Part shown: in pieces, positions 8,650 to 32,337 of the stretch
Numbering within the stretch: position 1 is the stretch's first letter
How the letters are laid out: each line of letters begins with the position of its first letter
Assembly (NCBI GenBank): GCA_020353355.1
Contig: CP070694.1
Span: forward strand, 3,627,016 to 3,662,553
Reading direction: 5' to 3'
DNA length: 35,538 nucleotides
Source of the DNA: Desulfobacterales bacterium
GTDB taxonomy: Bacteria > Desulfobacterota > Desulfobacteria > Desulfobacterales > JAHEIW01
Notes under the pieces: model-generated
What the model saw: the letters and a program-made list of their open reading frames with translations, nothing else
What the model was told of the DNA's origin: nothing
Databases searched by the model: none
Translations under genes and position numbers: made by a program

Positions 8650-8693
8650 AAACAAAATCGGTTCATTGCGATCATCTCACTGTTTTGAACCGA
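8650..8693 (-). terminator. Possible terminator of the histidine kinase/response regulator unit
   Basis: TGAACCGA (8686-8693) pairs with TCGGTTCA (8658-8665) around a 20-nt loop. Read on the - strand the stem is followed by TTTTGTTTG. The stem overlaps the last codons of the response regulator. The loop is long, so confidence is modest. Confidence 0.35.
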
Positions 8694-10059
8694 CTCCCAG
8701 ATTGTATTTCTTTAACTTTTGGTTCAGTCCGCTTTTTCCGATCCCTAGCAATTCAGCGGCATGCGCCTGCACATTGTTCGTCATTTTCAACGCCCGTTCT
8801 ATCAATGCCTTTTCAATCATGGCCAGGGTGTCATACAGCTTTGCATCGGCGGGTATTCCCTCAAGGTGCAAGGTATTATGGACATTGTCCTTAAACCCTT
8901 TGGGCAGATCTGAGACCCTGATCGTATCTCCCGGACAAAGGATCATGACCCGTTCGATGACGTTTTCAAGTTCGCGGACATTTCCGGGCCAGCTGTAATC
9001 ATAAAATAGGCGATCGACTTCCTGATCAACACCGGTGACGGGGATGCTGGAATTGCGTTCGCTTGCATATTTTCCGATAAAATGATTGACCAGGAGTCTA
9101 ATATCCTCTTTGCGCTCTTTCAATGCCGGCAAAACAATGTGCACCACGTTCAATCGATAGAAGAGGTCTTCACGGAACCGTCCCCTGACCATTTCTTCTT
9201 TTAAATTTTTATTGGTTGCCGCAATTATGCGAATGTCCACCGCCAGCGGACGCACGCCGCCAACCCGTTCAATGACTTTTTCTTGCAACACCCGCAGCAG
9301 TTTAACCTGCAGGTTTGGTGAGAGCTCACCGATTTCATCCAGGAACAGGGTTCCGCTGTCGGCCAGTTCGAATCGGCCCTTTTTCATCGCCACCGCCCCG
9401 GTAAACGCCCCTCTTTCATGACCAAACAATTCGCTTTCGAGCAAGCTTTCAGCCAAAGCCGAACAATTTACGGCCACATACGGCCTGTTACGCCGAGAGC
9501 TGTTGAAGTGAATGGACTTTGCGACGAGCTCTTTGCCGGTGCCGCTTTCTCCCTCGATCAATACGGTTGCGCTGGAAGGTGCCACCTTTTGAATCGTTTC
9601 AAAAACATCCTGCATGGGTTTACTTTTTCCGATGATGTTGCCGAAAGAATACTGGGACTCCACCGTATTGCGCAAGCGCCGGTTTTCTTTGATGACCTGA
9701 AAAACCGAGATGGCTTTTTTGACATATATGATCAGCCGCTGATTGTCGAAGGGCTTTAGAATATAGCTGTAGGCACCTTTTTGCATAGCCTCTACCGCTT
9801 TGTCGACGGTGCCATGTGCAGTCATCATCACCACGGGAAGCTCAGGATCAATGGCTTTGATATGTTCGAGCAATTCAATGCCGTCCATGACCGGCATTTT
9901 CATGTCCGTTAACACTAAATCGACATCAGAAGTTTTTTGAATTTCCAGTGCCTCCTGACCGCTGAGTGCCGTGAGGACTTCAAAGCCTTCCTCTTCCAAA
10001 ATGGCGGTTAATATGGTGAGGTAGTTTTTTTCATCATCGACAATCAGGATGGTTTCCAT
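8677..10059 (-). CDS. NtrC-family sigma-54-dependent response regulator
   Basis: A 460-residue regulator with three domains. The receiver (1-120) has acidic DDE, the phosphoacceptor D52 in LTDMKMP and K102. The AAA+ domain (about 140-375) has Walker A GESGTGKE (170-177), the sigma-54-contacting GAFTGA loop (217-222), Walker B TLFLDE and the FREDLFYRLNV segment. The C-terminal Fis-type helix-turn-helix (about 425-455) carries AAELLGIGKSGLNQKLKKY. It should activate sigma-54 promoters when phosphorylated by the histidine kinase encoded 97 bp upstream on the same strand. Target genes are not evident; no clear -24/-12 promoter was seen nearby. Confidence 0.95.
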   Translation of the reverse strand: METILIVDDEKNYLTILTAILEEEGFEVLTALSGQEALEIQKTSDVDLVLTDMKMPVMDGIELLEHIKAIDPELPVVMMTAHGTVDKAVEAMQKGAYSYILKPFDNQRLIIYVKKAISVFQVIKENRRLRNTVESQYSFGNIIGKSKPMQDVFETIQKVAPSSATVLIEGESGTGKELVAKSIHFNSSRRNRPYVAVNCSALAESLLESELFGHERGAFTGAVAMKKGRFELADSGTLFLDEIGELSPNLQVKLLRVLQEKVIERVGGVRPLAVDIRIIAATNKNLKEEMVRGRFREDLFYRLNVVHIVLPALKERKEDIRLLVNHFIGKYASERNSSIPVTGVDQEVDRLFYDYSWPGNVRELENVIERVMILCPGDTIRVSDLPKGFKDNVHNTLHLEGIPADAKLYDTLAMIEKALIERALKMTNNVQAHAAELLGIGKSGLNQKLKKYNLGVGSKQ

Positions 10060-10156: not shown

Positions 10157-11629
10157 TTACTGCGCACCCGAGTCCAGCGGAACAGAATTAAGAGATTCGC
10201 TGGTGTTCGGTTCAGCCTTGGTTATCGGCAATTCGATGGTTACCCGAACGCCCCGAACGGGTCTGTTGGAAATCTGAATGCTTCCGCCATGGGTTTCAAT
10301 AATATTTTTGACGATACCCAATCCGAGACCGGATCCCTTTTCCTTGTTGGTAAAAAAGGGATCCCAAATCTTTTCCAGAATATCTTCCGGAATACCGTGG
10401 CCTTCATCATCAATATGAATCACGACAAAACTGTCGTTGAAACTGACGCCGATCTGAATTCTACCGCCATCCGGCATGGCCTGCATGGAGTTAATCAAAA
10501 TGTTTAGAAATGATTGGTACAGCATCGAAGAATCCGCCATGATTTCAGGTAACGAATTTTGATAATTTTTCTTGATGATATAGCCCTGCTCTTTGATCTG
10601 AGGGGCGAGGTAGGTCAGGTTTTTTTCCAGGACTTCATCAATGCGGCAGGATGCTAGATTCGGGCTTCTGGGTCTCGCAAAATTAATAAAATCGGTGATA
10701 ATTTGATTCAACCGGCCCGATTCTTCAACGATGATATCCGGAATCGTATTTGCAGGTTCGAATTTAATCACTTTTTTCTTTAGCAACTCTGCGGAGCTTC
10801 GGATAATGCCCAGCGGGTTGCGGATTTCATGCGAAATTCCGGCAGCCATCTCGCCGATGGCGGATAATTTTTCTGCCCGGCTTAAGCGTTCCTTGAGCCG
10901 CAACCGCTCCATGGCTCTTTTTTGGATAATACCTTCACCGCGTTTTACCACAAATATCAGTACCACAAAAAGGGCTCCTATCAGCGCGGTACTCGTGATA
11001 ACGGCCAAAATTTGAATTTTGAAAATGGCCTTATAGTCTTCGGATAGATCTTGTTCAATTTCCACAACGCCAAGCACGTCACGGGTGAATTGACCCAGCG
11101 GTTTCTCCCAGCGCAAGGGAGCAAAAGAAATCAACCGAACCTCTTTGGGAAATCCGAGCAGAATCTGCAAAAAGTTGCCGCGTTGGATTAATTTCGACGT
11201 CGATTTGCCCTCCACCGCAAGCTGATATCCTGTGCCGCCATATTTCCTGCGGCCGATCATATCGGTGTCAAAGCTATAAGAAACGATGTTATCCATGCTG
11301 TATATATTTAGCGCTTTGACTTTAAAACTGTGCAACGTGCTGCGCACCACATTGTCCATGCGTTCAAATTGCTCTTTGTTACTTAACTGAATCTTACCGT
11401 AACGCAGGCCAACAGGAATAATAAATTGCAGGACCACCTGATGATTGAGATTTTCAATCAGAACATGGGCATAGTCTTCGCTGCTTTTGCGCTGCATCGA
11501 CCTAACCCAATGGGTGTTGAGCACCGTGAGCACAATGATGACTAAGAAAATGACGATAATTCCGGTAAAGGTAAAATACTTCACCAGCCGGAATGGTTTG
11601 ATTCTCTCCTCGGAGGGGGTGGCGTTCAT
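10157..11629 (-). CDS. Membrane sensor histidine kinase, partner of the adjacent NtrC-type regulator
   Basis: A 490-residue kinase. Membrane segments at about 20-39 and 205-228 enclose a periplasmic sensor region of about 165 residues. The HisKA domain has the H-box [11 protein letters not shown] (H267), followed by the N-box around [13 protein letters not shown]1 DDEGHGIP, the F-box DPFFTNK and G2 GSGLGLG. The sensor domain is not recognisable in detail and the signal is unknown. There is no clear PAS domain. The pair is organised kinase then regulator, as in AtoS/AtoC and ZraS/ZraR. It is divergent from the RNA/pil region, so a link to pilus regulation (PilS/PilR-like) is possible but unproven. 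Confidence 0.93.
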
Positions 11630-11698: not shown

Positions 11699-11746
11699 GC
11701 ATAAGCTATTTTTGTCGTCAATTATATACATCTATCTTTCAATAAA

Positions 11747-11810
11747 TTGACGGTCAACGAAAGGCACGGGTTCTGAAACCCTATAAATCCATGCCGGCGA
11801 ACATCCGGCA
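11747..11810. other. Short inverted repeats between the divergent units
   Basis: Three small symmetric elements sit between the kinase promoter and the RNA promoter: TTGAC/GTCAA at 11747-11757 around one base, GGGTT/AACCC at 11768-11781 with a CTGA loop, and TGCCGG/CCGGCA at 11792-11810 with a 7-nt loop. They could be operators or parts of a leader on either strand. No known riboswitch core was recognised; the ACGCAAAGC hallmark of c-di-GMP type I riboswitches is absent. Confidence 0.3.
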
Positions 11811-11824
11811 ATCTTTAAAATATA

Positions 11825-11853
11825 TTGAAAATATTATAATTATCGTTTATAAT
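11825..11853 (+). promoter_or_regulatory. Strong sigma-70-type promoter for the putative RNA
   Basis: TTGAAA (11825-11830, 5 of 6 bases of the -35 consensus) and a perfect TATAAT (11848-11853) are separated by exactly 17 bp. Transcription would start near 11860. A second TATAAT occurs at 11835-11840 without a good -35. Confidence 0.55.
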
Positions 11854-11859
11854 AATTTT

Positions 11860-12078
11860 TAGCTTTTCGGATTAAACGTTTTGGCGCAAAACTTGCATAG
11901 ATTTAATTGCCGGATTGGCAATACGAGGCTGGTGAATGCGCCGAGAACATTGCCCTCCAATTTGGTTTAATTCGGAAAACGAATTTGCCGACAACGAAAT
12001 AATACCGAAAAATTTCTCGGTACAAAAGCAAATATTTTTGAAACGGTGAATGGCGGGGTAAAACGCCCTGCTTTTTTT
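11860..12078 (+). ncRNA. Putative structured RNA (~220 nt; sRNA or attenuating leader)
   Basis: The segment runs from the predicted start of a good promoter to an intrinsic terminator. Visible helices: an enclosing stem GGCGCA/TGCGCC (11883-11888 with 11937-11942) around hairpin ATTGCC/GGCAAT (11906-11911 with 11917-11922); AATTCG/CGAATT (11969-11974 with 11980-11985); and TACCGA/TCGGTA (12003-12008 with 12017-12022). A second ATTGCC at 11949-11954 could compete for GGCAAT 11917-11922, a switch-like alternative. It does not resemble 6S, tmRNA, SRP RNA, RNase P or a riboswitch class I know. It could act alone or control the xre-pilMNOPQ operon 160 bp downstream. Identity is unknown; existence is inferred from promoter, helices and terminator. 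Confidence 0.45.
12053..12078 (+). terminator. Intrinsic terminator ending the putative RNA
   Basis: A six-pair GC-rich stem (12053-12058 with 12066-12071, one G-U pair) with a seven-base loop is followed by seven T. A competing helix is possible: GGGGTAAAA (12055-12063) can pair with TTTTAACCCC (12075-12084), with one bulge, which would absorb the T-run and act as an antiterminator. Confidence 0.6.
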
Positions 12079-12131
12079 AACCCCCATATATGGTAATTAG
12101 ATAAAAAAATAACACAATATAGTGTAACTAA

Positions 12132-12199
12132 TTGTAATTATGTATAAATTAAATATAATTAACTTGACTTATTTATAATTATATGTAATTAAATATAAT
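12132..12199 (+). promoter_or_regulatory. AT-rich promoter region of the xre-pilMNOPQ operon with 13-bp direct repeats
   Basis: Perfect TATAAT hexamers occur at 12154, 12174 and 12194. Plausible pairs are TTGTAA (12132-12137) with TATAAT 12154, 16 bp apart, and TTTATA (12172-12177) with TATAAT 12194, 16 bp apart; TTGACT lies at 12164. AATTAAATATAAT occurs exactly twice, at 12147-12159 and 12187-12199, 40 bp apart, or about four helical turns. The repeats overlap the -10 elements, so they could be operator sites, perhaps for the XRE-type protein encoded just downstream. Confidence 0.4.
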
Positions 12200-12240
12200 A
12201 GCAACGGCTTTGTGTGAGTTGCTTGATGATGGAAGAAAAG

Positions 12241-12477
12241 ATGTTTACCGATGCTCAGCTTATGGAAATAATACCTATGAGCAACAAAAACCGTTTAAAA
12301 GAAACTAGAGAATCGCTCCTGATGAGCAAGGCCGAACTTGCCAGGGAAGCGCAGGTTTCTCCGATTACAATTACGCGAATCGAAAATGGAATGCCGTGTC
12401 GTATGGAAACCAAACGCAAGATTCTCCTGGCACTCGGATTAAAATTATCAGAAAAAAACAAAATATTTAAGGACTAG
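12241..12477 (+). CDS. XRE-type helix-turn-helix regulator leading the pil operon
   Basis: A small DNA-binding protein of about 78 residues. The HTH_3 domain spans LKETRESLLMSKAELAREAQ and VSPITITRIENGMPCRMETKRKILLALGL, the typical five-helix Cro/CI-like layout. ATG 12241 is preceded by GGAAG at 12231-12235; upstream in-frame ATGs at 12226 and 12229 and a later ATG at 12280 are alternatives. The stop lies 8 bp before pilM, so it is very likely co-transcribed with pilMNOPQ. A local regulator inside the pil operon points to autoregulation of pilus assembly genes; this is inference. Confidence 0.8.
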   Translation: MFTDAQLMEIIPMSNKNRLKETRESLLMSKAELAREAQVSPITITRIENGMPCRMETKRKILLALGLKLSEKNKIFKD

Positions 12478-12485
12478 ACCAACAT

Positions 12486-13541
12486 ATGCTTTTCGGGAAA
12501 AAAGACCACCTGGTTGGCTTGGACATCGGTTCCAGGTCATTGAAAGCAGCAGAAATTGAGGAAACCAAACGGGGGCGAAGTTTAAAACGATTCGGTATCA
12601 CTGAAGTCCCCGCTGGGGCAATTGAAGACGGAACGATCAATGACCCCGAAGCGGTCGCTGAATCCATTCGTCAGTTGTTGAAGGCTTTCAATATCAAAGA
12701 ACGCAATGTGGCGATCTCCATCGGCGGCTATTCGGTCATCGTAAAAAAGATCGCCGTGCAAACCATGGATGAACAACAACTGCAGGATACCATCCATTTT
12801 GAAGCCGAGCAATATATCCCCTTCGACATTAGTGATGTGAACCTTGATTTCCAAATCCTGGGCGAAAACGAAAGCAATCCAAGCCAGATGAACGTTTTCC
12901 TGGTGGCCGCCAAAAAGGAGATGGTCAACGATTATGTCAGCCTTGCGAATCTCGCCGGACTTAATCCCTGTATCGTCGACGTCGAAGCATTTGCGTTACA
13001 AAATATCTTTGAAGTTAACTATGACGCCAGCAATGAAAATGTGGCTCTGATAGACATCGGTGCCAGCAAAACGTCCTTGAACATTTTGAAAGGCACGTCC
13101 TCGGTTTTTATGCGGGATGTTTCGCTGGGATGCTCACAGATCAATCAGAAAATTGTTTCGTTAATTGATTGCTCTTATGATGAGGCTGAACAGCTTAAAT
13201 ACGGCGACAACACCGACCGCATTTCCGTAGAGGATTTAAAGGGTATTGTATCATCCGTAGTGGCGGATTGGTGCACTGAAATTCGGCGCGCCCTTGATTT
13301 TTTCTATTCCACGTACCCCGATGACCAGATCAAAACGATTATTCTTAGCGGTGGCGGTGCCAATATAAATGAATTTCGTGAATTGCTGGCCGTTGAAGCA
13401 TCCGCTGAAGTAAACACCATTAATCCGTTCAAAAATGTTTATGTTGATGACGAGCGCTTTGATTCGGATTATATGCGAAGAATCGCGCCCCAGGCCGCCA
13501 TCAGCATGGGTCTTGCTATGAGAAGGGTGGATGACAAATGA
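12486..13541 (+). CDS. pilM: Type IV pilus assembly protein PilM
   Basis: A 351-residue actin/FtsA-like ATPase-fold protein. The N-terminal LVGLDIGSRSLKAAEIEE is the phosphate-binding-1 region, with later VALIDIGASKTSLNIL (phosphate 2) and IILSGGGANI (adenosine site). PilM sits on the cytoplasmic side of the inner membrane and binds the N-terminus of PilN. AAGGA at 12469-12473 lies 12 nt before the ATG. It overlaps pilN by 4 bp (ATGA), which indicates translational coupling. First structural gene of the alignment complex here. Confidence 0.96.
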   Translation: MLFGKKDHLVGLDIGSRSLKAAEIEETKRGRSLKRFGITEVPAGAIEDGTINDPEAVAESIRQLLKAFNIKERNVAISIGGYSVIVKKIAVQTMDEQQLQDTIHFEAEQYIPFDISDVNLDFQILGENESNPSQMNVFLVAAKKEMVNDYVSLANLAGLNPCIVDVEAFALQNIFEVNYDASNENVALIDIGASKTSLNILKGTSSVFMRDVSLGCSQINQKIVSLIDCSYDEAEQLKYGDNTDRISVEDLKGIVSSVVADWCTEIRRALDFFYSTYPDDQIKTIILSGGGANINEFRELLAVEASAEVNTINPFKNVYVDDERFDSDYMRRIAPQAAISMGLAMRRVDDK

Positions 13542-14125
13542 TACGAATTAATCTGCTGCCTTTTCGAGCTGCGCGCAAAAAGGAAAACATCCGTCGCCAG
13601 GTATCAATCTTTCTGTTGAGTTTGATTTTGGTACTGTTGGGCTTATTCGGCTTCAATCACTACCTTGGCTCAAAAATTGACGCCCTCAATGAGGATATCA
13701 AAAGAGCCAATGCCGAATTAAATAAATATAATGAAATCAACAAAGAAATCGCCAGAATCAAACAGACGCTTGAAAATCTGAAAAAGAAGATGGATGTGAT
13801 CACCACGCTTGAACTCAACCGGCAGGCTCCGGTGCGGCTGATGGATACATTGACCAAAGCGGTGATTGCCAAACGCATGTGGTTTACCAGCTTGGAAGAT
13901 CAAGATAGCTCGGTAAAAATTGATGGAATTGCGTTGGACAATAAAACGGTGGCCGATTTTATGGTTCGCTTGCAAGCTTGCGGGCTATTCAAAAGCGTCA
14001 ACTTAAAAACCCTGAAACACAAAGAAATTGAGGGCAATAATCTGAAAGAATTTAAAGTGACCTGCGATAAGACTCCTTTAGAAGGTCAGGAAGAAAAACC
14101 AGAAACCACAAAGGCCAAAACATAA
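13538..14125 (+). CDS. pilN: Type IV pilus inner-membrane protein PilN
   Basis: A 195-residue bitopic membrane protein. It begins MIRINLLPFR, the conserved PilN motif that binds PilM, followed by basic residues, one membrane segment (about 23-42), a coiled-coil stretch (about 46-90) and a periplasmic ferredoxin-like domain. It forms heterodimers with PilO. The acidic/lysine-rich tail is variable. Start overlaps the pilM end by 4 bp and the end overlaps pilO by 1 bp. Confidence 0.95.
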   Translation: MIRINLLPFRAARKKENIRRQVSIFLLSLILVLLGLFGFNHYLGSKIDALNEDIKRANAELNKYNEINKEIARIKQTLENLKKKMDVITTLELNRQAPVRLMDTLTKAVIAKRMWFTSLEDQDSSVKIDGIALDNKTVADFMVRLQACGLFKSVNLKTLKHKEIEGNNLKEFKVTCDKTPLEGQEEKPETTKAKT

Positions 14126-14748
14126 TGGTAGCAAAAGAACTCTCTTCTTCGAGCAAGCTAGAATCGTTTTTCGAAAATATTGAAAAACTTTCCAAGACCC
14201 AACGGGTTCTTATATCCGTAGGCGTCTTTGTGCTGATCATCGGAGCGTTTGTCTACCTCTTATATTTACCTAAATTTGGCGAAATCGATAAATTAGGTAA
14301 AAAGCTCGAAACTATTGAGAAAAAACTAATGACCGCCAAGCGCAATGCGGCTTCATTAAAAAAATTTCAGGCCAAGATGAAGGAAGCCGAAGCACAGTTT
14401 CAGGCAGCAATGCGCATGCTGCCTGAAAAGGAAGAGATTCCATCGCTGCTAACCAACATTTCCAAAGAGGGGCATGATGTTGGTCTGGACTTTTTGCTGT
14501 TTGAACCGAAACCCGAAGTCCGCAAAGAGTTTTATGCCGAAATTCCGGTGGCTATAAATGTGAAAGGTAGCTATCACGATATGGCCATGTTCTTTGATCG
14601 TGTTTCACGCTTATCTCGGATCGTCAACGTTAAAAACATCAGCATGGGCCGGGAAAAAGAAGGGGAGCAGCTGAAAACCTCGTGTACGGCGGTTACCTAT
14701 AAGTTTGTTGAGCCTCCCCCGAACGCAAAAACCGAAAAAAAAAAATAG
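14125..14748 (+). CDS. pilO: Type IV pilus inner-membrane protein PilO
   Basis: A 207-residue protein with a cytoplasmic N-terminus, a membrane segment at about 30-50 (VLISVGVFVLIIGAFVYLLY), a periplasmic coiled coil and a ferredoxin-like domain ending in the usual SRLSRIVNVKNISM pattern. It pairs with PilN and links to PilP. The gene overlaps pilN by one base (TAATG). The C-terminus ends in a run of lysines encoded by an A-tract (about 14737-14746). Confidence 0.95.
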   Translation: MVAKELSSSSKLESFFENIEKLSKTQRVLISVGVFVLIIGAFVYLLYLPKFGEIDKLGKKLETIEKKLMTAKRNAASLKKFQAKMKEAEAQFQAAMRMLPEKEEIPSLLTNISKEGHDVGLDFLLFEPKPEVRKEFYAEIPVAINVKGSYHDMAMFFDRVSRLSRIVNVKNISMGREKEGEQLKTSCTAVTYKFVEPPPNAKTEKKK

Positions 14749-14779
14749 ACATCCTGCAAAAACGACAAACTGCGCTATC

Positions 14780-15643
14780 ATGAAAAAATACCTTGCTCTT
14801 TTTCGCAACTTAGTCTGGTTTCTCTGTATATTGACCTTTGTATGGAGCTGTGAGCAGGCATCCGGGCCGCCTCCAAAGCCCAAAGTTATTCGCAAAAAGA
14901 TAATTGCCAGAAATGATCAATCTGCCGAAACCCAGAAGGTCAAGCAGACACCGCCGGTCAAATCTCAACCGACTGCTCAGCCACAACCGGTGACGGCTGC
15001 CCCAGAAAGCCAAGAGCTTCAACAACCACCTCAAAAACCAACAACGACGAGCCCGCCACTTGTTGCTAAAAAGGATGAAACCGTATCTCCCCAAACACCG
15101 AGACCTCAACCGGCAACGGCCAAAAAACCGGCCATCGGTCCTAAATCGGATATCTCGATCCTAAAACCGCCGGTGAAGCAACCCCAGCCACCGAAAGCGG
15201 CTGCGCCAGCTGAAACGGATGAGACCCCAGAGGAGCCCTCCCCGGATATGAAAATAGCAGTTGTTCCGTCACCCTACTATAGCCCGCAAGGCCGAATTGA
15301 TCCATTTGAACCGTTGTTTCAGAAAAAACGGGAGGACGCCAAAGTATGGACGCCAAAACGAGGACAGCGAGTTCCGCGCACACCGCTTGAAAAAATTGAT
15401 TTAAGCCAGCTAAAGCTGGTGGCAATTGTGCTGGCCAAAAGCGGGAACCGGGCCATGGTCGAAGAAACATCCGGTAAAGGATATGTCATTGAAAAAGGCA
15501 CCTTTATCGGCACCAACGCCGGTAAGGTGGTTACTATCGATTTCGATAGAGTTGTTGTGAAAGAAGAATTCGAAGATAATATGGGCAATGTTAAAGTTCG
15601 TGATACCGAGTTAAAACTTCTGAAGCCTCCTGGAGAATTTTAA
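14780..15643 (+). CDS. pilP: Type IV pilus lipoprotein PilP with long Pro-rich linker
   Basis: About 287 residues. The lipoprotein signal ends in TFVWSC, so the mature protein would be anchored at Cys near residue 25. Residues about 30-165 form a Pro/Gln/Lys-rich linker, much longer than in many PilP proteins. The C-terminal domain has GRIDPFEPLF and LSQLKLVAIVLA, GKGYVIEKGTFIGTNAGKV: the PilP beta-sandwich that contacts the N0 domain of PilQ. I chose ATG 14780 because it gives the lipoprotein signal; the frame is open upstream. It lies 31 bp after pilO and 1 bp before pilQ. Confidence 0.93.
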   Translation: MKKYLALFRNLVWFLCILTFVWSCEQASGPPPKPKVIRKKIIARNDQSAETQKVKQTPPVKSQPTAQPQPVTAAPESQELQQPPQKPTTTSPPLVAKKDETVSPQTPRPQPATAKKPAIGPKSDISILKPPVKQPQPPKAAAPAETDETPEEPSPDMKIAVVPSPYYSPQGRIDPFEPLFQKKREDAKVWTPKRGQRVPRTPLEKIDLSQLKLVAIVLAKSGNRAMVEETSGKGYVIEKGTFIGTNAGKVVTIDFDRVVVKEEFEDNMGNVKVRDTELKLLKPPGEF

Positions 15644-15644
15644 G

Positions 15645-18563
15645 ATGATTAACCTATTAAAGCGATTTTGCATGCATATTATTCTGATTTTTCTCTTTAT
15701 CAGTCCCATAATACTGTTGCAAGGATGTGCCGCCAATAAAGCTGCGGAAGGAAAAGCCGAGGGAGAAAAACGGATAACGGCGATCACCACCCACGAAGAG
15801 GCCGGGTCAACCGAGGTGACCGTATCGGGAAACCAGATGTTGACGTACACATCCATTAAGCAGGTTTTCCCATTGGGTGTGCTCTTTCATTTTCCGGAAA
15901 CCTCTCTTGAAAATATCCAACCGGAGTATACGCCAGCGGATAACTCGATCATCACCTTGATCAAGGCTACAGAAATAAAAGAAGAAGACAAGACCACAAC
16001 CTCACGAATTTTTATCGCCTTGAATAAAGACGTGCCGTATGATATCAGCCCGGGTGATGCGGGTCTGCAGATAGCTTTCCCCAAAACCGCGGTTGTGGCC
16101 GCTGCAGCAGAGCCGGCAGCAACAGCAGAAAAACCTTCACCGCCGGCCGTCAAAAAAAGTGTACCGGCAGCCACCCGCATTAAATCGGTGGCCGCCACCC
16201 CCCTTCAAAAAAATATAGTGATCACGGTCAGCGCCGATGGTATCATAAAAAATTACAAGTCATTTACCATCGATGATCCCCCGCGCATCGTCATTGACCT
16301 GTATAAACTCAAAAGCCCCTTTACCAAAGAGCAACGCCTTGCGGTAACGTCTAAATGGGTAAGACAGGTGCGCCATTTCGGTCATCCGGACAAAGTCAGA
16401 TTGGTGCTCGATACCTACAAGCCTTATCTCTCCAAATTCTCGGCAACCCCGGTTGACAGCGGGTTGTTAATTCATGTGGGCACAGTACCCGCCAAACCCG
16501 CGGAACAAGAGCAGATCCCTGTTGTGACGCAAACCCAAAAGACGGCCGAGCCCGAAAAGAAAGAACCCGTGATAAAACAGCCTGCCCCGGCAGCCGCGGA
16601 AAAGCAGGAGGCTGAGGTCAAAGAAGAAAAATACGACAAGCCCGCATGGGTCAACCGTATTGATTTTTCCAGCGAAGAAGAAGGAAAATCGGCGTTAATT
16701 ATTGGAACCACCCGGCCCGTCAAATATGAAATAAAAAAAGTGAGTGATAAGATGGTGCACCTCCGGCTCTTTGACACCAATATCCCGGAATACCGCAAAC
16801 GGGCACTGATTACCACCCGCTTTGAAAGCGCCGTGGACCGCATAACCCCGATTCAGACACCGGCAACGAAAAACGAATCGTTGTTTGCAATTGAAATGCG
16901 GGAGGCGGTGCCGTATTTTGTTAACCAGAAAGAAAACGCTATCCGCGTCAATTTTTCAGCCTCTAAAATCCCTCCCAAACCCTATGAGGATGCCGATCTT
17001 CCGGCCTGGAAAAAAGTTTTGGCCGAAGGGGAAGCAGCCGCCGAGCCTGCAAAGCAGGCTGCCGAAGCCGAAGCACCCGCTAAAAAGGCAGTTGCCCCTG
17101 CGCCCAAAAGGCAACCTGTGAAAGCCGCAAAACCTCCTAAAGTTGAAACGATTATGACTGAACCGCCGACAAGGGAGGCGCTTGGCGATGAGGAAATGGC
17201 CGGAGTCATATCCGAAAGGAGAGCGGATGAATTTGATATCGAACGCCAAACCAGAGTGGATCTGTATAGCGGAGAAGAAGAACGGGTTGATATTTACGGT
17301 GAAAGAGTCATCCGAAGATACACCGGCGAGCCGATTGCCCTGGATTTTTATGAAACCGACATTAAGAATGTTTTTCGAATCTTAAAGGAAGTCGGCGGCA
17401 AGAATTTCGCCGTTGACAAAAATGTCACCGGAAAAGTCACCCTTGCCCTTGAAGAGCCGGTGCCCTGGGACCAGGTGCTCGACCTGGTTCTGAAAATGAA
17501 TCAGCTGGGTAGAATTTGGGAGGGAAACATCATTCGGATTGCCACCTTAAAAACGCTCGAATTGGAAGAAAAACAAAAACGACTGAAATTGGAGGAGGAG
17601 AAAAAAAGAAGAAAAGAAGAAGCTCTCATAACAGCCTTTCTCAGGATTAACTATGCCAATGCACAATCCGTGGCCGATAAACATATTGTTCCGCTATACG
17701 AACCCCGGGAGGGTGCCAAGGAAAAGGAACGCGGCTCGGTGACGGTCGATGAGCGACTGAACATGATTATCGTTACCGGAACACCCTCACTGGTCAAACG
17801 CGCCAAAGAAATCATTAATCGAGTCGACCTGGTAACACCCCAGGTCATCATTGAAGCCAGAGTCGTTGAAGCCAACAGCAGTTTCTCAAGAGATCTCGGT
17901 TTCGATTGGGGAACGGTCACCCTCGGCCAATTTGATTTGGGTAATGTTTTTAGCGTCGGTCCCACCACGTTTCGAGCCAATAATTTACCGGAAGGCGAAC
18001 CGACGGCGGTGCTGGGTTTCAATGTCTCCAAACTTAAGGGAACATCGTTTGATATCGTCGCTGCCCAACTTGTCGCCAGCGAAATTGAGGGCATCACAAA
18101 TATCCTGTCTGCGCCAAAGATTGTCACCCTCAACAATCAAAAGGCCAAAATAAAACAAGGCTTTGAGGTGCCGTATTTGGAACGCGATTCTTCCGGTAAT
18201 GCCACGGTGCGGTTCAAAAATGTGGATTTGTTACTGGAAGTAACTCCCAGTGTGACCTTCGACAATCGCGTATCATTGGATATATTTGTGACCAAAAACG
18301 ACATCGTCGATCCGACCGCTCCGCAACCGGCCCTGTCAACCAATGAGGCCCAGACCAAAATCTTATTGGACGACGGGGAAACCGTGGTGATCGGTGGTAT
18401 CCTGAAATCGACCCAACAATGGGGTGAAGATAGAATCCCCGGATTGGGAAAGCTGCCCGGTCTCGGCTGGCTCTTTAAAGCCCAAGAGCACGATGATGAT
18501 AAAAACGAGCTGTTAATCTTTATCACTCCTCAAATCGTCTATCTCGAACAGCAGAAATTGTAG
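15645..18563 (+). CDS. pilQ: Type IV pilus secretin PilQ
   Basis: A large 972-residue outer-membrane secretin. It starts with a lipoprotein-like signal (LLQGC, Cys 28). Three AMIN-like beta domains follow, at about 45-147, 178-280 and 335-440, joined by Ala/Pro/Lys-rich linkers; these bind peptidoglycan. The STN/N0 domain is near 565-640 (IALDFYETDIKNVFRIL), then an N1 domain, and the secretin barrel at about 760-970 with the signature VVIGGILKSTQ and GLGKLPGLGWLF. At 972 residues it is long for PilQ because of the extra AMIN domain and linkers. GGAG at 15632-15635 serves as ribosome binding site. Last gene of the operon, followed by a terminator. Confidence 0.96.
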   Translation: MINLLKRFCMHIILIFLFISPIILLQGCAANKAAEGKAEGEKRITAITTHEEAGSTEVTVSGNQMLTYTSIKQVFPLGVLFHFPETSLENIQPEYTPADNSIITLIKATEIKEEDKTTTSRIFIALNKDVPYDISPGDAGLQIAFPKTAVVAAAAEPAATAEKPSPPAVKKSVPAATRIKSVAATPLQKNIVITVSADGIIKNYKSFTIDDPPRIVIDLYKLKSPFTKEQRLAVTSKWVRQVRHFGHPDKVRLVLDTYKPYLSKFSATPVDSGLLIHVGTVPAKPAEQEQIPVVTQTQKTAEPEKKEPVIKQPAPAAAEKQEAEVKEEKYDKPAWVNRIDFSSEEEGKSALIIGTTRPVKYEIKKVSDKMVHLRLFDTNIPEYRKRALITTRFESAVDRITPIQTPATKNESLFAIEMREAVPYFVNQKENAIRVNFSASKIPPKPYEDADLPAWKKVLAEGEAAAEPAKQAAEAEAPAKKAVAPAPKRQPVKAAKPPKVETIMTEPPTREALGDEEMAGVISERRADEFDIERQTRVDLYSGEEERVDIYGERVIRRYTGEPIALDFYETDIKNVFRILKEVGGKNFAVDKNVTGKVTLALEEPVPWDQVLDLVLKMNQLGRIWEGNIIRIATLKTLELEEKQKRLKLEEEKKRRKEEALITAFLRINYANAQSVADKHIVPLYEPREGAKEKERGSVTVDERLNMIIVTGTPSLVKRAKEIINRVDLVTPQVIIEARVVEANSSFSRDLGFDWGTVTLGQFDLGNVFSVGPTTFRANNLPEGEPTAVLGFNVSKLKGTSFDIVAAQLVASEIEGITNILSAPKIVTLNNQKAKIKQGFEVPYLERDSSGNATVRFKNVDLLLEVTPSVTFDNRVSLDIFVTKNDIVDPTAPQPALSTNEAQTKILLDDGETVVIGGILKSTQQWGEDRIPGLGKLPGLGWLFKAQEHDDDKNELLIFITPQIVYLEQQKL

Positions 18564-22420: not shown

Positions 22421-23008
22421 ATGGAAGAAATTCAAGTCGCAAAAAGTCAAATTCGAAGTGATATCGCCAAAACGTTAGCCGCGCTTTCTCAAAAAGAAAT
22501 CGCCTTAAAAACAAAAGCGATTGAAAACAAACTCTTTGATTTTGCTAATTTCTTAGAGTCAAAAATTGCGCTGCTATATGTCAACAGTGGATGTGAAGTC
22601 GCCACGCATACAATTTTAGCTCGAAGTTACGCTTACAACAAAATTGTTGTTTTACCGGCATTTAATGCCGGATCTTTTGAAATGACACTCATGAAAGTCG
22701 ACGATCTGACCAACGACCTGAAAAGCGGCTCAAGAGGCATTCTGGAACCGGATCCAGACCGTTGTAAAATTGTACCGATTGATCGGATTGATATCGCCAT
22801 AATTCCGGCAGTTGCTTTGGATGAAAAAGGTGGTCGGATAGGCTCCGGTGAAGGCTATTACGACAGGCTGATTCCCAATTTAGCAATTACCACCCGCAAG
22901 GTAGCCCTTGCCTTGGAAGAACAAATTGTTCCGCAGGTTCCGATTGAATCCCACGACAAACATGTTGATATCATCATTACCGACAGACGAATCATTTATA
23001 AGATATAA
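22421..23008 (+). CDS. fau: 5-formyltetrahydrofolate cyclo-ligase
   Basis: A 195-residue enzyme that uses ATP to convert 5-formyl-THF to 5,10-methenyl-THF in one-carbon metabolism. The diagnostic C-terminal motif GGRIGSGEGYYDR is present, along with IAIIPAVALDEKG and the SKIALLYVNSGCEVAT region for folate binding. The start ATG 22421 has GGGAG eight bases upstream. It is a single gene ending at a stem-loop shared with the convergent channel gene. Confidence 0.92.
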   Translation: MEEIQVAKSQIRSDIAKTLAALSQKEIALKTKAIENKLFDFANFLESKIALLYVNSGCEVATHTILARSYAYNKIVVLPAFNAGSFEMTLMKVDDLTNDLKSGSRGILEPDPDRCKIVPIDRIDIAIIPAVALDEKGGRIGSGEGYYDRLIPNLAITTRKVALALEEQIVPQVPIESHDKHVDIIITDRRIIYKI

Positions 23009-23047
23009 AACACAAGCGTTCAGTGCCCGGCTGAACGCTCGTGTTTT
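23007..23047. terminator. Long stem-loop between convergent genes
   Basis: A 17-bp stem with a single mismatch (23007-23023 with 23031-23047) and a seven-base loop, flanked by A and T runs of four, lies between the cyclo-ligase and channel genes. It probably terminates both. It overlaps the last codon and stop of the channel gene. Confidence 0.75.
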
Positions 23048-24044
23048 ATGGGTTCAATATTTTTTCAAGTTTCTGAAGATTGTCAACCTCTCCCACCGCA
23101 ATAACGGTATCATCCGGCCGGATAACGGCTTCAAATGATGGATTAAACAACATACTGCCATCCGGCTTTTTAATGGCAATGATAATAAGATTAAAGTTTT
23201 GCCGGATTCCGGAATCCTTCAGCATAACATCGACCAACGAAGAGGACCCATCCACAGGTATCTCTTCCATCTGAATGTCTTTGCGCGCATGCGCAAAGGC
23301 AAGGTCCAAAAAACTCGTCACTGTTGGCCGAACGATCCGATGGGCCATATTCAGTGCCCCCATTTCATAGGGCGACTCCACCCGATCTGCACCGGCCGCC
23401 TTTAGCTTGATCTTGGATTCCTCTTGGCTTGCCCGGGCGATGATTAGAAGATCAGGTGCCAGCTGCCGGGCGGTTAACACCAAAAATACATTATCGGTAT
23501 CCGTAGCCAACGCAGCAACCAGACCTTTGGCACGCTGAATGCCGGCCTTAATCAGATTGGTCTCATTCGCCGCTTCTCCGGTGACATATAGGATTCCATC
23601 TTGATCCATGACCGATATCAACTCCGGATTCTTATCGATCACGACCAAGTCCATTGGCGTTTGTCTCAAATTACGGGCTAAAACCCTTCCAATGCGTCCA
23701 TATCCACAAATAATATAATGATTCTTCAATCGGTTAAGTTGTTTGTCCAATCTCCTCCTCCCCATAATGACTCGGATTCGTCCTTCAACCATAAATTGTA
23801 CGACCGCAGCGGCGACATATAATGTGAAGCCAACACCGGAGAATATGAGAAATATGGAAAATATGCGCCCCACGGCACCGACATCATGCACTTCACGGTA
23901 GCCAACAGTGGAAATGGTAATAACAGTCATGTAGAGTGCATCCAAGATTCCCCAATCTTCAATCAGCATGTATCCGGCTGTACCGAGAATGATAATGAGC
24001 GCTGACAACACCACAGATATGAGCAAATGTCTCGTACTATCCAT
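23046..24044 (-). CDS. Two-TM potassium channel with cytoplasmic RCK (TrkA-N/TrkA-C) domain
   Basis: A 332-residue channel of the MthK/Kch type. TM1 is about 8-27, the pore loop with filter TVGYRE is 46-51, and TM2 is about 61-84. The RCK-N Rossmann domain starts at 108 with CGYGRIGRVLARNL (nucleotide-binding GxGxxG 114-119), and a TrkA-C domain occupies about 245-330. The filter reads GYR where GYGD is canonical; the TVGY core is intact. It likely conducts K+ or a related cation under ligand control. Single gene, convergent with the cyclo-ligase. Confidence 0.9.
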   Translation of the reverse strand: MDSTRHLLISVVLSALIIILGTAGYMLIEDWGILDALYMTVITISTVGYREVHDVGAVGRIFSIFLIFSGVGFTLYVAAAVVQFMVEGRIRVIMGRRRLDKQLNRLKNHYIICGYGRIGRVLARNLRQTPMDLVVIDKNPELISVMDQDGILYVTGEAANETNLIKAGIQRAKGLVAALATDTDNVFLVLTARQLAPDLLIIARASQEESKIKLKAAGADRVESPYEMGALNMAHRIVRPTVTSFLDLAFAHARKDIQMEEIPVDGSSSLVDVMLKDSGIRQNFNLIIIAIKKPDGSMLFNPSFEAVIRPDDTVIAVGEVDNLQKLEKILNP

Positions 24045-28533: not shown

Positions 28534-29889
28534 TTAGTTGAGGTTTTTGATTTTCTTGTAAAGATAACTCCGCCCAACCCCTATGGCTTTGGCGGTTTTG
28601 GCAATATTATTTTCATTTTCAGTCAGCTTCTGTTTGATAAATTCTTTTTCAAACTCTTTGCGGGCTTCCTTAAATCGCCCGATTTGCAAAAGCTCGGAAC
28701 CCATCGAACTGGTCTCATGACAAACTGCCAGATTATAAGAAGCCGGTATATCCTCGTCATCGATTACATTTTTATCCACCATAATCACCAATCGCTCGAT
28801 CAGATTCTTCAATTCCCGAACATTTCCCGGCCAGGAATAACTGCCCAAAATTTTAAGGGCAGACGGGGTGATCGTTTTGGGTTTGCTGCGGTTCTGATTT
28901 GCAAATTCATTCAGAAAATTGTCTACCAGTTCAGGAATGTCATCAATGCGATGCCTCAGCGGCGGGACTTCGATGGGGATAACATTTAAGCGATAATAAA
29001 GATCTTCTCTGAAGCTTCCATTTTCAATTTCCTGCTCAAGATTTTTATTGCTGGCGGCAATCACTCTTACATTTACCCTGATCGTTCTGCTTCCGCCAAC
29101 GCGTTGAATTTTTTGTTCCTGTAGCACCCGCAGAATTTTCGCCTGGGTCATTAAGCTCATGTCACCGATTTCATCCAGAAAAATCGTACCATTGTTGGCC
29201 AGTTCGAATTTACCAATTTTTTTGGTCAGTGCTGCCGAGAACGCTCCTTTTTCATGACCAAACAATTCACTTTCAATCAACTCATCCGGAATAGCCGCAC
29301 AGTTGACATCTATCAGGGGCTGATCGGCTCGCGGACTTAGCTGGTGAATGGTGCGGGCGACCAGCTCTTTTCCGGTACCATTTTCTCCTTTAATCAGTAT
29401 ATAGCTGTCCGTGGGGGCTGCGGCAGCAATATTTTTCTTTAATTCGATGGTCCCGAGGCTGTTGCCGTTGATAGAATTTTTTTCCAACGTCTTTTTACGC
29501 AGATATTTGTTTTCTTCTTCCAGGCGCCTGAAATTCAGGGCGTTATTAATCGCCACTATAACCTTGTCGATGGAAAGGGGCTTTTCAATGAGATCAAATG
29601 CCCCAAGCTTGGTGGCTCTGACGGCGGTTTCGATGGTCCCGTGTCCGGTGATAATGATCACCTGGATATGGGGATTATCTTTTTTAATCTCCTTTAAGGT
29701 TTCAATACCGTCAATCCCCGGCATCCAGATATCAAGCAATACAAGATCCGGAGATTCGGTATCAATAATTTTCAACGCCTCATAGCCGTTTGCAGCAGTT
29801 GAAACGTCAAAGCCTTCATCGGATAAGAGGCCGCTAAGCGTTTGCAATATGGATTGTTCGTCATCCACAATTAACACTGATGGAAACAT
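28534..29889 (-). CDS. ntrX: NtrX-like response regulator with altered GAFTGA loop
   Basis: A 451-residue regulator: receiver with D53 (LLDIWMP) and K103, AAA+ domain with Walker A GENGTGKE (168-175) and Walker B TIFLDEIGD, and a C-terminal Fis-type HTH (NIAKTAKAIGVGRSYLYKKIK). The loop that normally contacts sigma-54, GAFTGA, reads GAFSAA (215-220). This suggests it may not activate sigma-54 normally and may act as a repressor or sigma-70-type regulator, as seen for some NtrX/NtrC variants. It is encoded downstream of ntrY on the same strand, after a repeat-rich 213-bp gap. Confidence 0.88.
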   Translation of the reverse strand: MFPSVLIVDDEQSILQTLSGLLSDEGFDVSTAANGYEALKIIDTESPDLVLLDIWMPGIDGIETLKEIKKDNPHIQVIIITGHGTIETAVRATKLGAFDLIEKPLSIDKVIVAINNALNFRRLEEENKYLRKKTLEKNSINGNSLGTIELKKNIAAAAPTDSYILIKGENGTGKELVARTIHQLSPRADQPLIDVNCAAIPDELIESELFGHEKGAFSAALTKKIGKFELANNGTIFLDEIGDMSLMTQAKILRVLQEQKIQRVGGSRTIRVNVRVIAASNKNLEQEIENGSFREDLYYRLNVIPIEVPPLRHRIDDIPELVDNFLNEFANQNRSKPKTITPSALKILGSYSWPGNVRELKNLIERLVIMVDKNVIDDEDIPASYNLAVCHETSSMGSELLQIGRFKEARKEFEKEFIKQKLTENENNIAKTAKAIGVGRSYLYKKIKNLN

Positions 29890-30102: not shown

Positions 30103-32337
30103 TTATTCCGGCAGTTCGATAACAAATTTGGCGCCACGGGGTATATTGTCCTGAACGTTTATCATACCATTATGATCGGCAATAATGGTATTTACGATGG
30201 TAAGGCCTAATCCCATACCGGACTTTTTTGTAGAAAAATGGGGTTCGAAAAGGCGCGTCTTGTCTTCGTCTGAAATTCCCAGACCGTCATCAGCAACTTC
30301 GACCCGGACTCGTTTTAAAATCGGATCATGAGATATCGCAATGCTGATATTACCATTTTCTTCAATTGCGCCAATCGCATTGTCAATCAGGTTGATGAGG
30401 GCTTGTTTGATCTGCTGGCGGTCAAGATTTAGCAGCGGCATATCATCGGCATTGCTGATCTTAAAATTAATATTCGGATGCCCTTCCTTATATAGCGCAA
30501 CGCTTTCTTCAATGATCTGCAGTAGCTCACAGGGTTTGGGATGTGCGCTTGGAAATCGTGCAAACGATGAAAATTCGTTGACCAGATTCCGAATTAACTC
30601 AACATGATCAATTATCGTTTGCGTGCATTCTTCAAAAACCGAATCATTTAACTGCGTGGCGTATTTGCGTTTCAGACGCTGTGCTGAAAGGGTTATCGGG
30701 GTTAGCGGGTTTTTTACTTCATGCGCAATTCTGCGGGCCACCTCACGCCAGGCTGCCATCCGTTGTCCTTTTTCAAGCTCGGTTAAGTCATCGAAAACAA
30801 TAAGAATTCCAATATTGCGACCGGTATCATCCCGCAATGCATTGACCGAAAACAGAAAACTTCTCGGTCTGCCCTCGATAATGAGGCGCAATGGCAATTC
30901 AATCACATTTCCCCGCGAAAGGGTCAGGTTTTCCATGATTTCATTGGCAAGATCCAGATGCTGGCCGTTTAATAAATGCTTATAGCTTTTATTTAATACC
31001 TGCTCGGCCTTGAGATTGAGCATTTTTTCAGCCGACTTGTTCATCGTCGATATCAGGCCATTGGCGTCGAGAGTCACAACCCCGGCAGAAACGCTCTTCA
31101 ACACGATTTCAAGATGCTGGCGTTTTTCTTCAATTTCTATATTTTGCTGTTGAAGCATGCGCGCCGAGAGCTCAAGCTGCTCTCTGCTGTTTTTAAGATC
31201 CTTTGTCATTTTGTTAAACGATTCCACCAGGCTCCCAATCTCGTCATCGGCAACCGGACTGATGCTAAAGCTCAGCTCGCCTTCGGCCACGCGCCGAGTT
31301 CCTTCGGCCAGCTCCTTAATGGGTATGCTGATGGATTTGGCCAAGTAAAAACCGAACCAAATGGCACAGAACAATACCAGCAATGCCACAATGGATAAGG
31401 TAATATAGTAGGTAATCTGAATTGGTTTTTTCAGCAGCTTAATTTGTTGGTACTCGGCAAAGCCCCGATTAATGGACCGCATTTTTTCCGAAATATCCGG
31501 GGGAAGCAGAATGGTCGCCACCACAAACGCTTCGGCATCTTCGGGCAACACACCGAATGGAACGGTTGCGATGGTTTTGATAAACTCCCCGGAGGGAACG
31601 CTTTGCGCAATGGATCGCACACCGTTTTCCGGCAGGTTGCTGTGCAGGTTATCTTTGGAAATAACACCGAAATATTCATTTTCGAGTTTTTGTGCCAGGA
31701 TAAAGGTAATCCGCTCGGAATTGGCTGCATAGACCTCCACCGCATCGAGATTAAATTCTCTTTGAACAACCTGGATATATTGGGAAAGCGCATTGGCCTT
31801 GGCCGGATCAAGCAGTTTTTTGCTAATGATTTGGTAAGCCATGCGTTTCAGAAAAAATTGATTATTGGCTTCTACCCGTCCATAGACGCTTCCGCCAACC
31901 TGCAATGAATTTTCAAGGGCCTGCTCCACGGGAACATTGAACCAGAATTCGATGCTGGTGGTAATAAAATTGATGGAAAAGAAAAATAAAACAATGGTGG
32001 GCAACAGTGTCAAAGCGATAAAGGCAACGACCAGCCGGGTACGCAGACGCGCACCAAGCACTTTGCGCTTTCGATCATAAAGCAGTTTGACCAGATTCCT
32101 GAACACCAGAAAAATCAATAAGATTAACAAAAGTAAATTGATGTTGATCAGAATGAACATCAAAATGGTGTTTGAAATCGGGATATCGGCACCAAAGCGA
32201 ATAATGCGGCTCTCTAGAAACGTCAGAAGCGCGACCACAACGATAATTACAAAAATGAGAAAAACCTCACGCTTCCGTCGGCGCAAGTCTTCCCCGGTAA
32301 TCGTTGGTTTTGTATCTGTGGCTTTAGATTTAAACAT
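30103..32337 (-). CDS. ntrY: NtrY-like sensor histidine kinase
   Basis: A 744-residue kinase with the NtrY layout: three N-terminal membrane segments (about 24-42, 58-80, 101-123), a periplasmic region, a fourth segment (about 309-333), HAMP (334-386), PAS (about 408-520), HisKA with ARRIAHEVKNPLTP (H539) and a HATPase domain with N-, G1- (DDGLGIS) and G2-box (GMGLGLT). The PAS carries SAEKMLNLKAEQVL. Its partner is the NtrX-like regulator downstream. Placement after lpxC and a DUF4390 gene suggests an envelope-related signal, not nitrogen, but that is inference. Confidence 0.93.
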   Translation of the reverse strand: MFKSKATDTKPTITGEDLRRRKREVFLIFVIIVVVALLTFLESRIIRFGADIPISNTILMFILININLLLLILLIFLVFRNLVKLLYDRKRKVLGARLRTRLVVAFIALTLLPTIVLFFFSINFITTSIEFWFNVPVEQALENSLQVGGSVYGRVEANNQFFLKRMAYQIISKKLLDPAKANALSQYIQVVQREFNLDAVEVYAANSERITFILAQKLENEYFGVISKDNLHSNLPENGVRSIAQSVPSGEFIKTIATVPFGVLPEDAEAFVVATILLPPDISEKMRSINRGFAEYQQIKLLKKPIQITYYITLSIVALLVLFCAIWFGFYLAKSISIPIKELAEGTRRVAEGELSFSISPVADDEIGSLVESFNKMTKDLKNSREQLELSARMLQQQNIEIEEKRQHLEIVLKSVSAGVVTLDANGLISTMNKSAEKMLNLKAEQVLNKSYKHLLNGQHLDLANEIMENLTLSRGNVIELPLRLIIEGRPRSFLFSVNALRDDTGRNIGILIVFDDLTELEKGQRMAAWREVARRIAHEVKNPLTPITLSAQRLKRKYATQLNDSVFEECTQTIIDHVELIRNLVNEFSSFARFPSAHPKPCELLQIIEESVALYKEGHPNINFKISNADDMPLLNLDRQQIKQALINLIDNAIGAIEENGNISIAISHDPILKRVRVEVADDGLGISDEDKTRLFEPHFSTKKSGMGLGLTIVNTIIADHNGMINVQDNIPRGAKFVIELPE

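Follow-up and report, generated by a model that had tools for sequence, protein, structure and literature searches.

A putative sigma-54 promoter between a divergent NtrC-family two-component pair and the pilMNOPQ operon in Desulfobacterales

In the stretch of Desulfobacterales DNA analysed here (35,538 nucleotides, referred to as the window), a gap separates a divergently transcribed sensor kinase/response regulator pair from the HTH-pilM...pilQ genes. The original prediction, made from the letters of the window, described a short promoter-to-terminator unit upstream of pil, assigned it to no known RNA class, and proposed that it could be a new sRNA or a riboswitch-like leader controlling the pilus genes. 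This paper describes the gap and its counterparts in related genomes. The features concerned are listed below in the order of their coordinates.

8677..10059, minus strand: NtrC-family response regulator (Sigma54_activat E 1e-72, Response_reg, and HTH_8 of the Fis type)
10157..11629, minus strand: sensor histidine kinase, PilS-like by position (HisKA and HATPase_c), divergent from pilM
11739..11759, no strand assigned: candidate enhancer (UAS) TCAATAAATTGACGGTCAACG for the adjacent regulator, containing the 5-1-5 palindrome TTGAC-G-GTCAA
11825..11853, plus strand: sigma-70-type promoter TTGAAA-17-TATAAT, 11 of 12 matches, predicted start about 11860
11881..11897, plus strand: predicted sigma-54 promoter TTGGCGCAAAACTTGCA (GG-N10-GC, GG at 11883-84 and GC at 11895-96), predicted start about 11908
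11908..12078, plus strand: predicted short transcript, as derived from the promoters and the terminator
12052..12078, plus strand: predicted intrinsic terminator, 8-pair stem (12052-12072) followed by TTTTTTT (12072-12078)
12084..12204, plus strand: AT-rich box with TAATTA/TGTAATTA repeats and a second predicted promoter (CTTGACTT...)
12277..12477, plus strand: Cro/C1-type HTH protein of 66 aa, first gene before pilM (Pfam HTH_3 E 2.9e-8)
12486..18563, plus strand: pilM...pilQ operon, with PilM at 12486-13541 (PilM_2 E 5e-79) and PilQ at 15645-18563 (TIGR02515 E 1.5e-102)

The locus and the genomes compared

The response regulator has the complete architecture of its family, consisting of a receiver, a sigma-54 activation domain in which GAFTGA can be read in the translation, and a Fis-type HTH, and rpoN was found in the window's genome. 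Besides the Pfam domains matched in the kinase and the regulator, no NCBIfam equivalog scored above its cut-off for either protein; AtoC was nearest, below threshold. Further along the window, 28534-29889 encodes a second response regulator that appears NtrC-like by eye, with GAFSAA in place of the GAFTGA usual in activators, and 30103-32337 encodes a large membrane histidine kinase.

For the comparison, we collected from 76 unique Desulfobacterales loci the stretch that separates the kinase from the HTH gene (or from pilM); where no kinase was found, 700 nt upstream of the HTH gene or of pilM were taken instead. In 50 of these loci pilM has the kinase as its divergent neighbour, and the 66-aa HTH gene is present in 65 of them. 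The genome G001 belongs to the same genus as the window and is its only sequenced congener, a metagenome-assembled genome; it gives the same locus as L082 (CP070746.1, Desulfobacterales bacterium bin36), in which PilM is 90% identical to that of the window, and alignment of the intergenic gap showed about 75% identity.

A putative sigma-54 promoter and the adjacent pair

Overlooked in the original prediction, the site at 11881-11897 is very probably a sigma-54 promoter. It is oriented toward HTH-pilMNOPQ, lies beside the divergent NtrC-family kinase/regulator pair, and fits the context TGGCAC-N5-TTGCW with exact GG(-24)/GC(-12) spacing; the sigma-54 promoter consensus in a sulfate reducer is tGGcacg/tTGC (PMC4641369). 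The pattern TGGCNYRNNNYTTGCA, which is close to this site, has only 6 occurrences in the 5.3-Mb genome. In the congener, TTGGCGCAAAACTTGCAT is kept except for a single change (GCGC to GCGT) that leaves the site and its spacing intact, and both are also intact in three loci of a sister genus (L049-L051). The putative sigma-54 site, a DNA element, is the most constrained and the main regulatory feature of the region.

Among the collected loci, a strict sigma-54 pattern (YGGCN7TTGCW), which was chosen after viewing the sites and is hence somewhat fitted to them, was found toward pil in 27 of the 50 loci with the kinase versus 0 of the 26 without it (Fisher 4.6e-7), leaving 23 kinase-bearing loci without a strict site. 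On the reverse strand it was found in 1 of the 50, and shuffles gave a mean of 0.27 per 50. Generic consensus weights that were not learned from these loci yielded the same split (26/58 versus 0/30, duplicates still included). Because the loci share ancestry, the association was recounted on PilM clusters, which gave P values of 5e-6 at 95%, 0.002 at 85%, and 0.047 at 80% clustering; significance was lost at 75%, a level at which most loci fall into a single cluster.

Enhancers of sigma-54 activators are located 100 bp or more upstream (PMC4641369). The TTGAC of the candidate enhancer lies at -134 from the -24 element in the window and at -143 in the congener, where its counterpart is TTGACAGTCAA. 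Throughout the 27 site-bearing loci, CAAN4TTGAC was encountered 16 times at -180 to -141 from the -24 element and twice elsewhere, the window's own copy falling just within the -141 edge or a little nearer, according to which base is taken as reference; in the window and its congener this motif overlaps the TTGAC-N-GTCAA palindrome. Two features of the sigma-54 class, a clustered enhancer-like element upstream and an adjacent regulator with a sigma-54 interaction domain, are both found at this locus. The position of the pair, the candidate enhancer, and the co-occurrence of site and kinase suggest with good confidence that the promoter is controlled by the adjacent pair, and the regulator would bind the candidate enhancer. 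Between this element and the promoters there are two perfect dyads, GGGTTCTGAAACCC at 11768-11781 and GCCGG-CGAACAT-CCGGC at 11793-11809.

The surroundings of the site vary. It is located 171 nt before the HTH gene in L122, and 171 nt before pilM in L084, which has lost the HTH gene and the AT box. In several loci of Desulfatitalea and relatives (L112-L121), a conserved CGATGACTTG follows directly after the predicted sigma-54 start and CACAATATnTTGTTGTG-type dyads precede the AT box, both being absent from the window. The three sister-genus loci share a conserved AAAAAGGAGG or AAAAAGGGAGG and then ACGGATCA about 115 nt after the sigma-54 promoter, and ATCCGT occurs further along, close to the start of the HTH gene; this arrangement could reflect long-range pairing or a lost gene start.

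The short transcript, its ends and its fold

The sigma-70-type hexamers (TTGAAA at 11825-11830 and TATAAT at 11848-11853, 17 bp between them), the hairpins, and the GC stem followed by seven T are all present where the original prediction had placed them. In a scan, promoter-like sites were about as frequent as in shuffles (4 versus 3.9 expected), and 2 terminator-like sites were found versus 0.6 expected. The congener keeps both hexamers, the 17-bp spacing, and the AATTTTTAGCTTT that follows, with a diverged spacer. It also keeps the terminator, ATGGCGGGGT...ACGCC..GCTTTTTTTAA, including the T7; two changes convert the 3' arm from CGCCCTGCT to CGCCTCGCT with retention of wobble pairing, so that the GC-rich stem and U run of an intrinsic terminator are retained in both genomes. 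No terminator was found in the other 22 of the 24 sigma-54-bearing loci scanned. The predicted transcript would measure about 171 nt from the sigma-54 start and about 219 nt from the sigma-70 start. Its length differs within the genus, as the distance from the sigma-54 site to the end of the terminator stem is 192 nt in the window and 88 nt in the congener, and that from the -12 element to the terminator about 165 and about 75 nt, respectively. Termination near 12078 is quite likely in the window's genus, as judged from two genomes, and the conservation of terminator and sigma-70 promoter implies that the transcript probably ends before the pil operon. Thus, both ends of the proposed unit are upheld by the congener, whereas the helices between them are not conserved, which for the helices is the outcome that the original prediction had named as its refutation.

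The minimum free energy structure of the window's RNA comprises an enclosing stem, hairpins, and the terminator, at -63.3 kcal/mol (z -2.98; a value as low was reached by 1 of 200 shuffles). Since 15 of 322 segments of 225 nt from the same 35 kb have a folding z at or below this value, the structure ranks roughly in the top 5% and is not exceptional. The lowest folding z of the 35 kb, -5.6, belongs to the segment starting at 661 (661-885), and segments from 22881 (22881-23325) are also low (-4.4, -3.8, and -3.3). The congener lacks about 90 nt of the RNA body, and the folds of its transcripts barely exceed those of shuffled sequences in stability, if at all (z -0.67 and -0.18). Rfam searches, both at the gathering threshold and with E values of up to 10, returned chance-level matches only. 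Apart from one 26-nt match at chance level, no relative of 11899-12080 was detected in 389 genomes of the class, nor was there any in plasmids; neither repeats nor a mobile element were found in the own genome or plasmids, and the region contains no tRNA or tmRNA.

These results bear on what the short transcript could be. A new riboswitch-like or structured RNA leader, transcribed from the sigma-70 promoter, would agree with the low folding z in the window and with the two ends kept in the congener, and the absence of an Rfam match leaves room for a new class. However, the 5' arm of the enclosing stem, the inner hairpins, and the elements thought to act as switches are absent or changed in the congener, the fold there does not stand out, and conserved helices with compensatory changes, the mark of a structured RNA, were not seen in the two genomes of the genus. 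ATTGCC does occur at 11907 and 11949 and GGCAAT at 11918, but the second ATTGCC, put forward as a competitor for pairing, is not conserved. Likewise, GGGGTAAAA (12055) and its partner TTTTAACCCC past the T-run are present, but the antiterminator that they were suggested to form is impossible in the congener, in which AAACTCTATC replaces AACCCC. Such pairing would moreover require RNA that is synthesised after release of the polymerase. The congener thus largely refutes the riboswitch reading, which we regard as highly improbable. An equally remote reading is that the transcript encodes a 37-aa protein (11936-12049): the frame is open between promoter and terminator, ends just before the latter, and has GAGG about 7 nt before its ATG, but frames of this length are common by chance, and this one has no counterpart in the congener, where the body is missing, and no nucleotide relatives in the class.

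A stronger contender is a trans-acting small RNA (11908-12078) that would be sigma-54-dependent, run by the neighbouring two-component system, and regulate distant mRNAs. The sigma-54 promoter beside an NtrC-family regulator and the strong terminator before the next promoter, both kept in the congener, speak in its favour, and non-coding RNAs downstream of their own sigma-54 regulators have been reported in Desulfovibrio vulgaris (PMC4641369). Against it stand the divergence of the body within the genus itself (75 versus 165 nt), the absence of any relative of the body in the 389 class genomes, and the lack of a terminator in the other 22 loci scanned; we regard a trans-acting role as unlikely. 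On the two genomes at hand, we consider it reasonably probable that the short RNA is an attenuated leader rather than a small RNA; alternatively, it may insulate the downstream promoter. It is conceivable, though less likely than not, that a two-component system sensing a signal drives a short sigma-54-dependent RNA ahead of the pilus assembly operon, and that in this genus a terminator, gained or retained, has made an attenuator gate or the gene of a small RNA out of what was simply an operon promoter.

Proposed control of the pil operon and known systems

Stretches similar in DNA sequence to the AT-rich one after the terminator were found in other families of the order. TAATTA occurs 1.6 times per region in loci with the HTH gene versus 0.43 expected, and 0.27 versus 0.40 times in the 11 loci without it. 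In L084, the entire AT-rich box is missing along with most of the HTH gene, and a short remnant precedes pilM; this joint loss suggests that the box is tied to the HTH gene. The box probably serves the HTH-pil operon as its basal promoter and as an operator linked to the HTH gene.

Taken together, the region would serve to control transcription of HTH-pilMNOPQ. The divergent kinase/NtrC-type pair would bind the TTGAC dyad about 135 bp upstream and open the sigma-54 promoter, which in most Desulfobacterales that carry the site would read straight into the HTH-pil operon; as the site is kept in relatives, mostly without a terminator after it, its general role is best read as that of an activated promoter of this operon. 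In the window's genus, with a sigma-70 promoter just upstream and a terminator just downstream, most transcripts would end near 12078. The most economical interpretation is an attenuated 5' leader, in which the activated promoter would add to pil transcription by read-through and a separate promoter in the AT-rich box would provide basal expression. We consider this model as a whole, with a pair-controlled sigma-54 promoter toward pil and an attenuated leader in the window's genus, to be likely. Counting against it are the 23 kinase-bearing loci without a strict site, the loss of the association at 75% PilM clustering, and a terminator seen in two genomes; in addition, no conserved antiterminator was found.

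These findings point to a widespread NtrC-type two-component system that is linked to the core pilus assembly operon (pilMNOPQ together with the gene for a small HTH protein) in sulfate reducers and related bacteria. They also illustrate that a structure spotted visually in a single sequence can overlie a conserved DNA element, and that a single congener suffices to separate the two.

Small RNAs that are transcribed from sigma-54 promoters under NtrC-type regulators include CrcZ, with CbrAB, and the Qrr RNAs, with LuxO. They have in common with the present locus, as predicted here, a sigma-54 promoter under the control of an NtrC-type regulator; CrcZ and Qrr have conserved functional cores, whereas the RNA described here is without a conserved body and without an Rfam match. 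The sigma-54-dependent non-coding RNAs of D. vulgaris, downstream of DVU0653 and DVU0679 and upstream of DVU2357 (PMC4641369), are reported to come from a sigma-54 promoter beside an activator gene in a sulfate reducer, an arrangement like the one predicted here. Unlike these, the present transcript fronts an operon, and most relatives have no terminator for it.

Control of pili by sigma-54 is best known for pilA, and among open-licence papers nothing pertinent was found on a sigma-54 promoter at pilM in Desulfobacterales. The classic case is PilS/PilR-sigma-54 control of pilA in Pseudomonas aeruginosa, in which PilS has six transmembrane segments (PMC6058289). With this system, and with the PilR regulon of Geobacter, the present locus shares a two-component pair, an NtrC-family regulator, and a predicted sigma-54 pilus promoter; its target is HTH-pilMNOPQ and not pilA, and the likeness is one of position and domain content.
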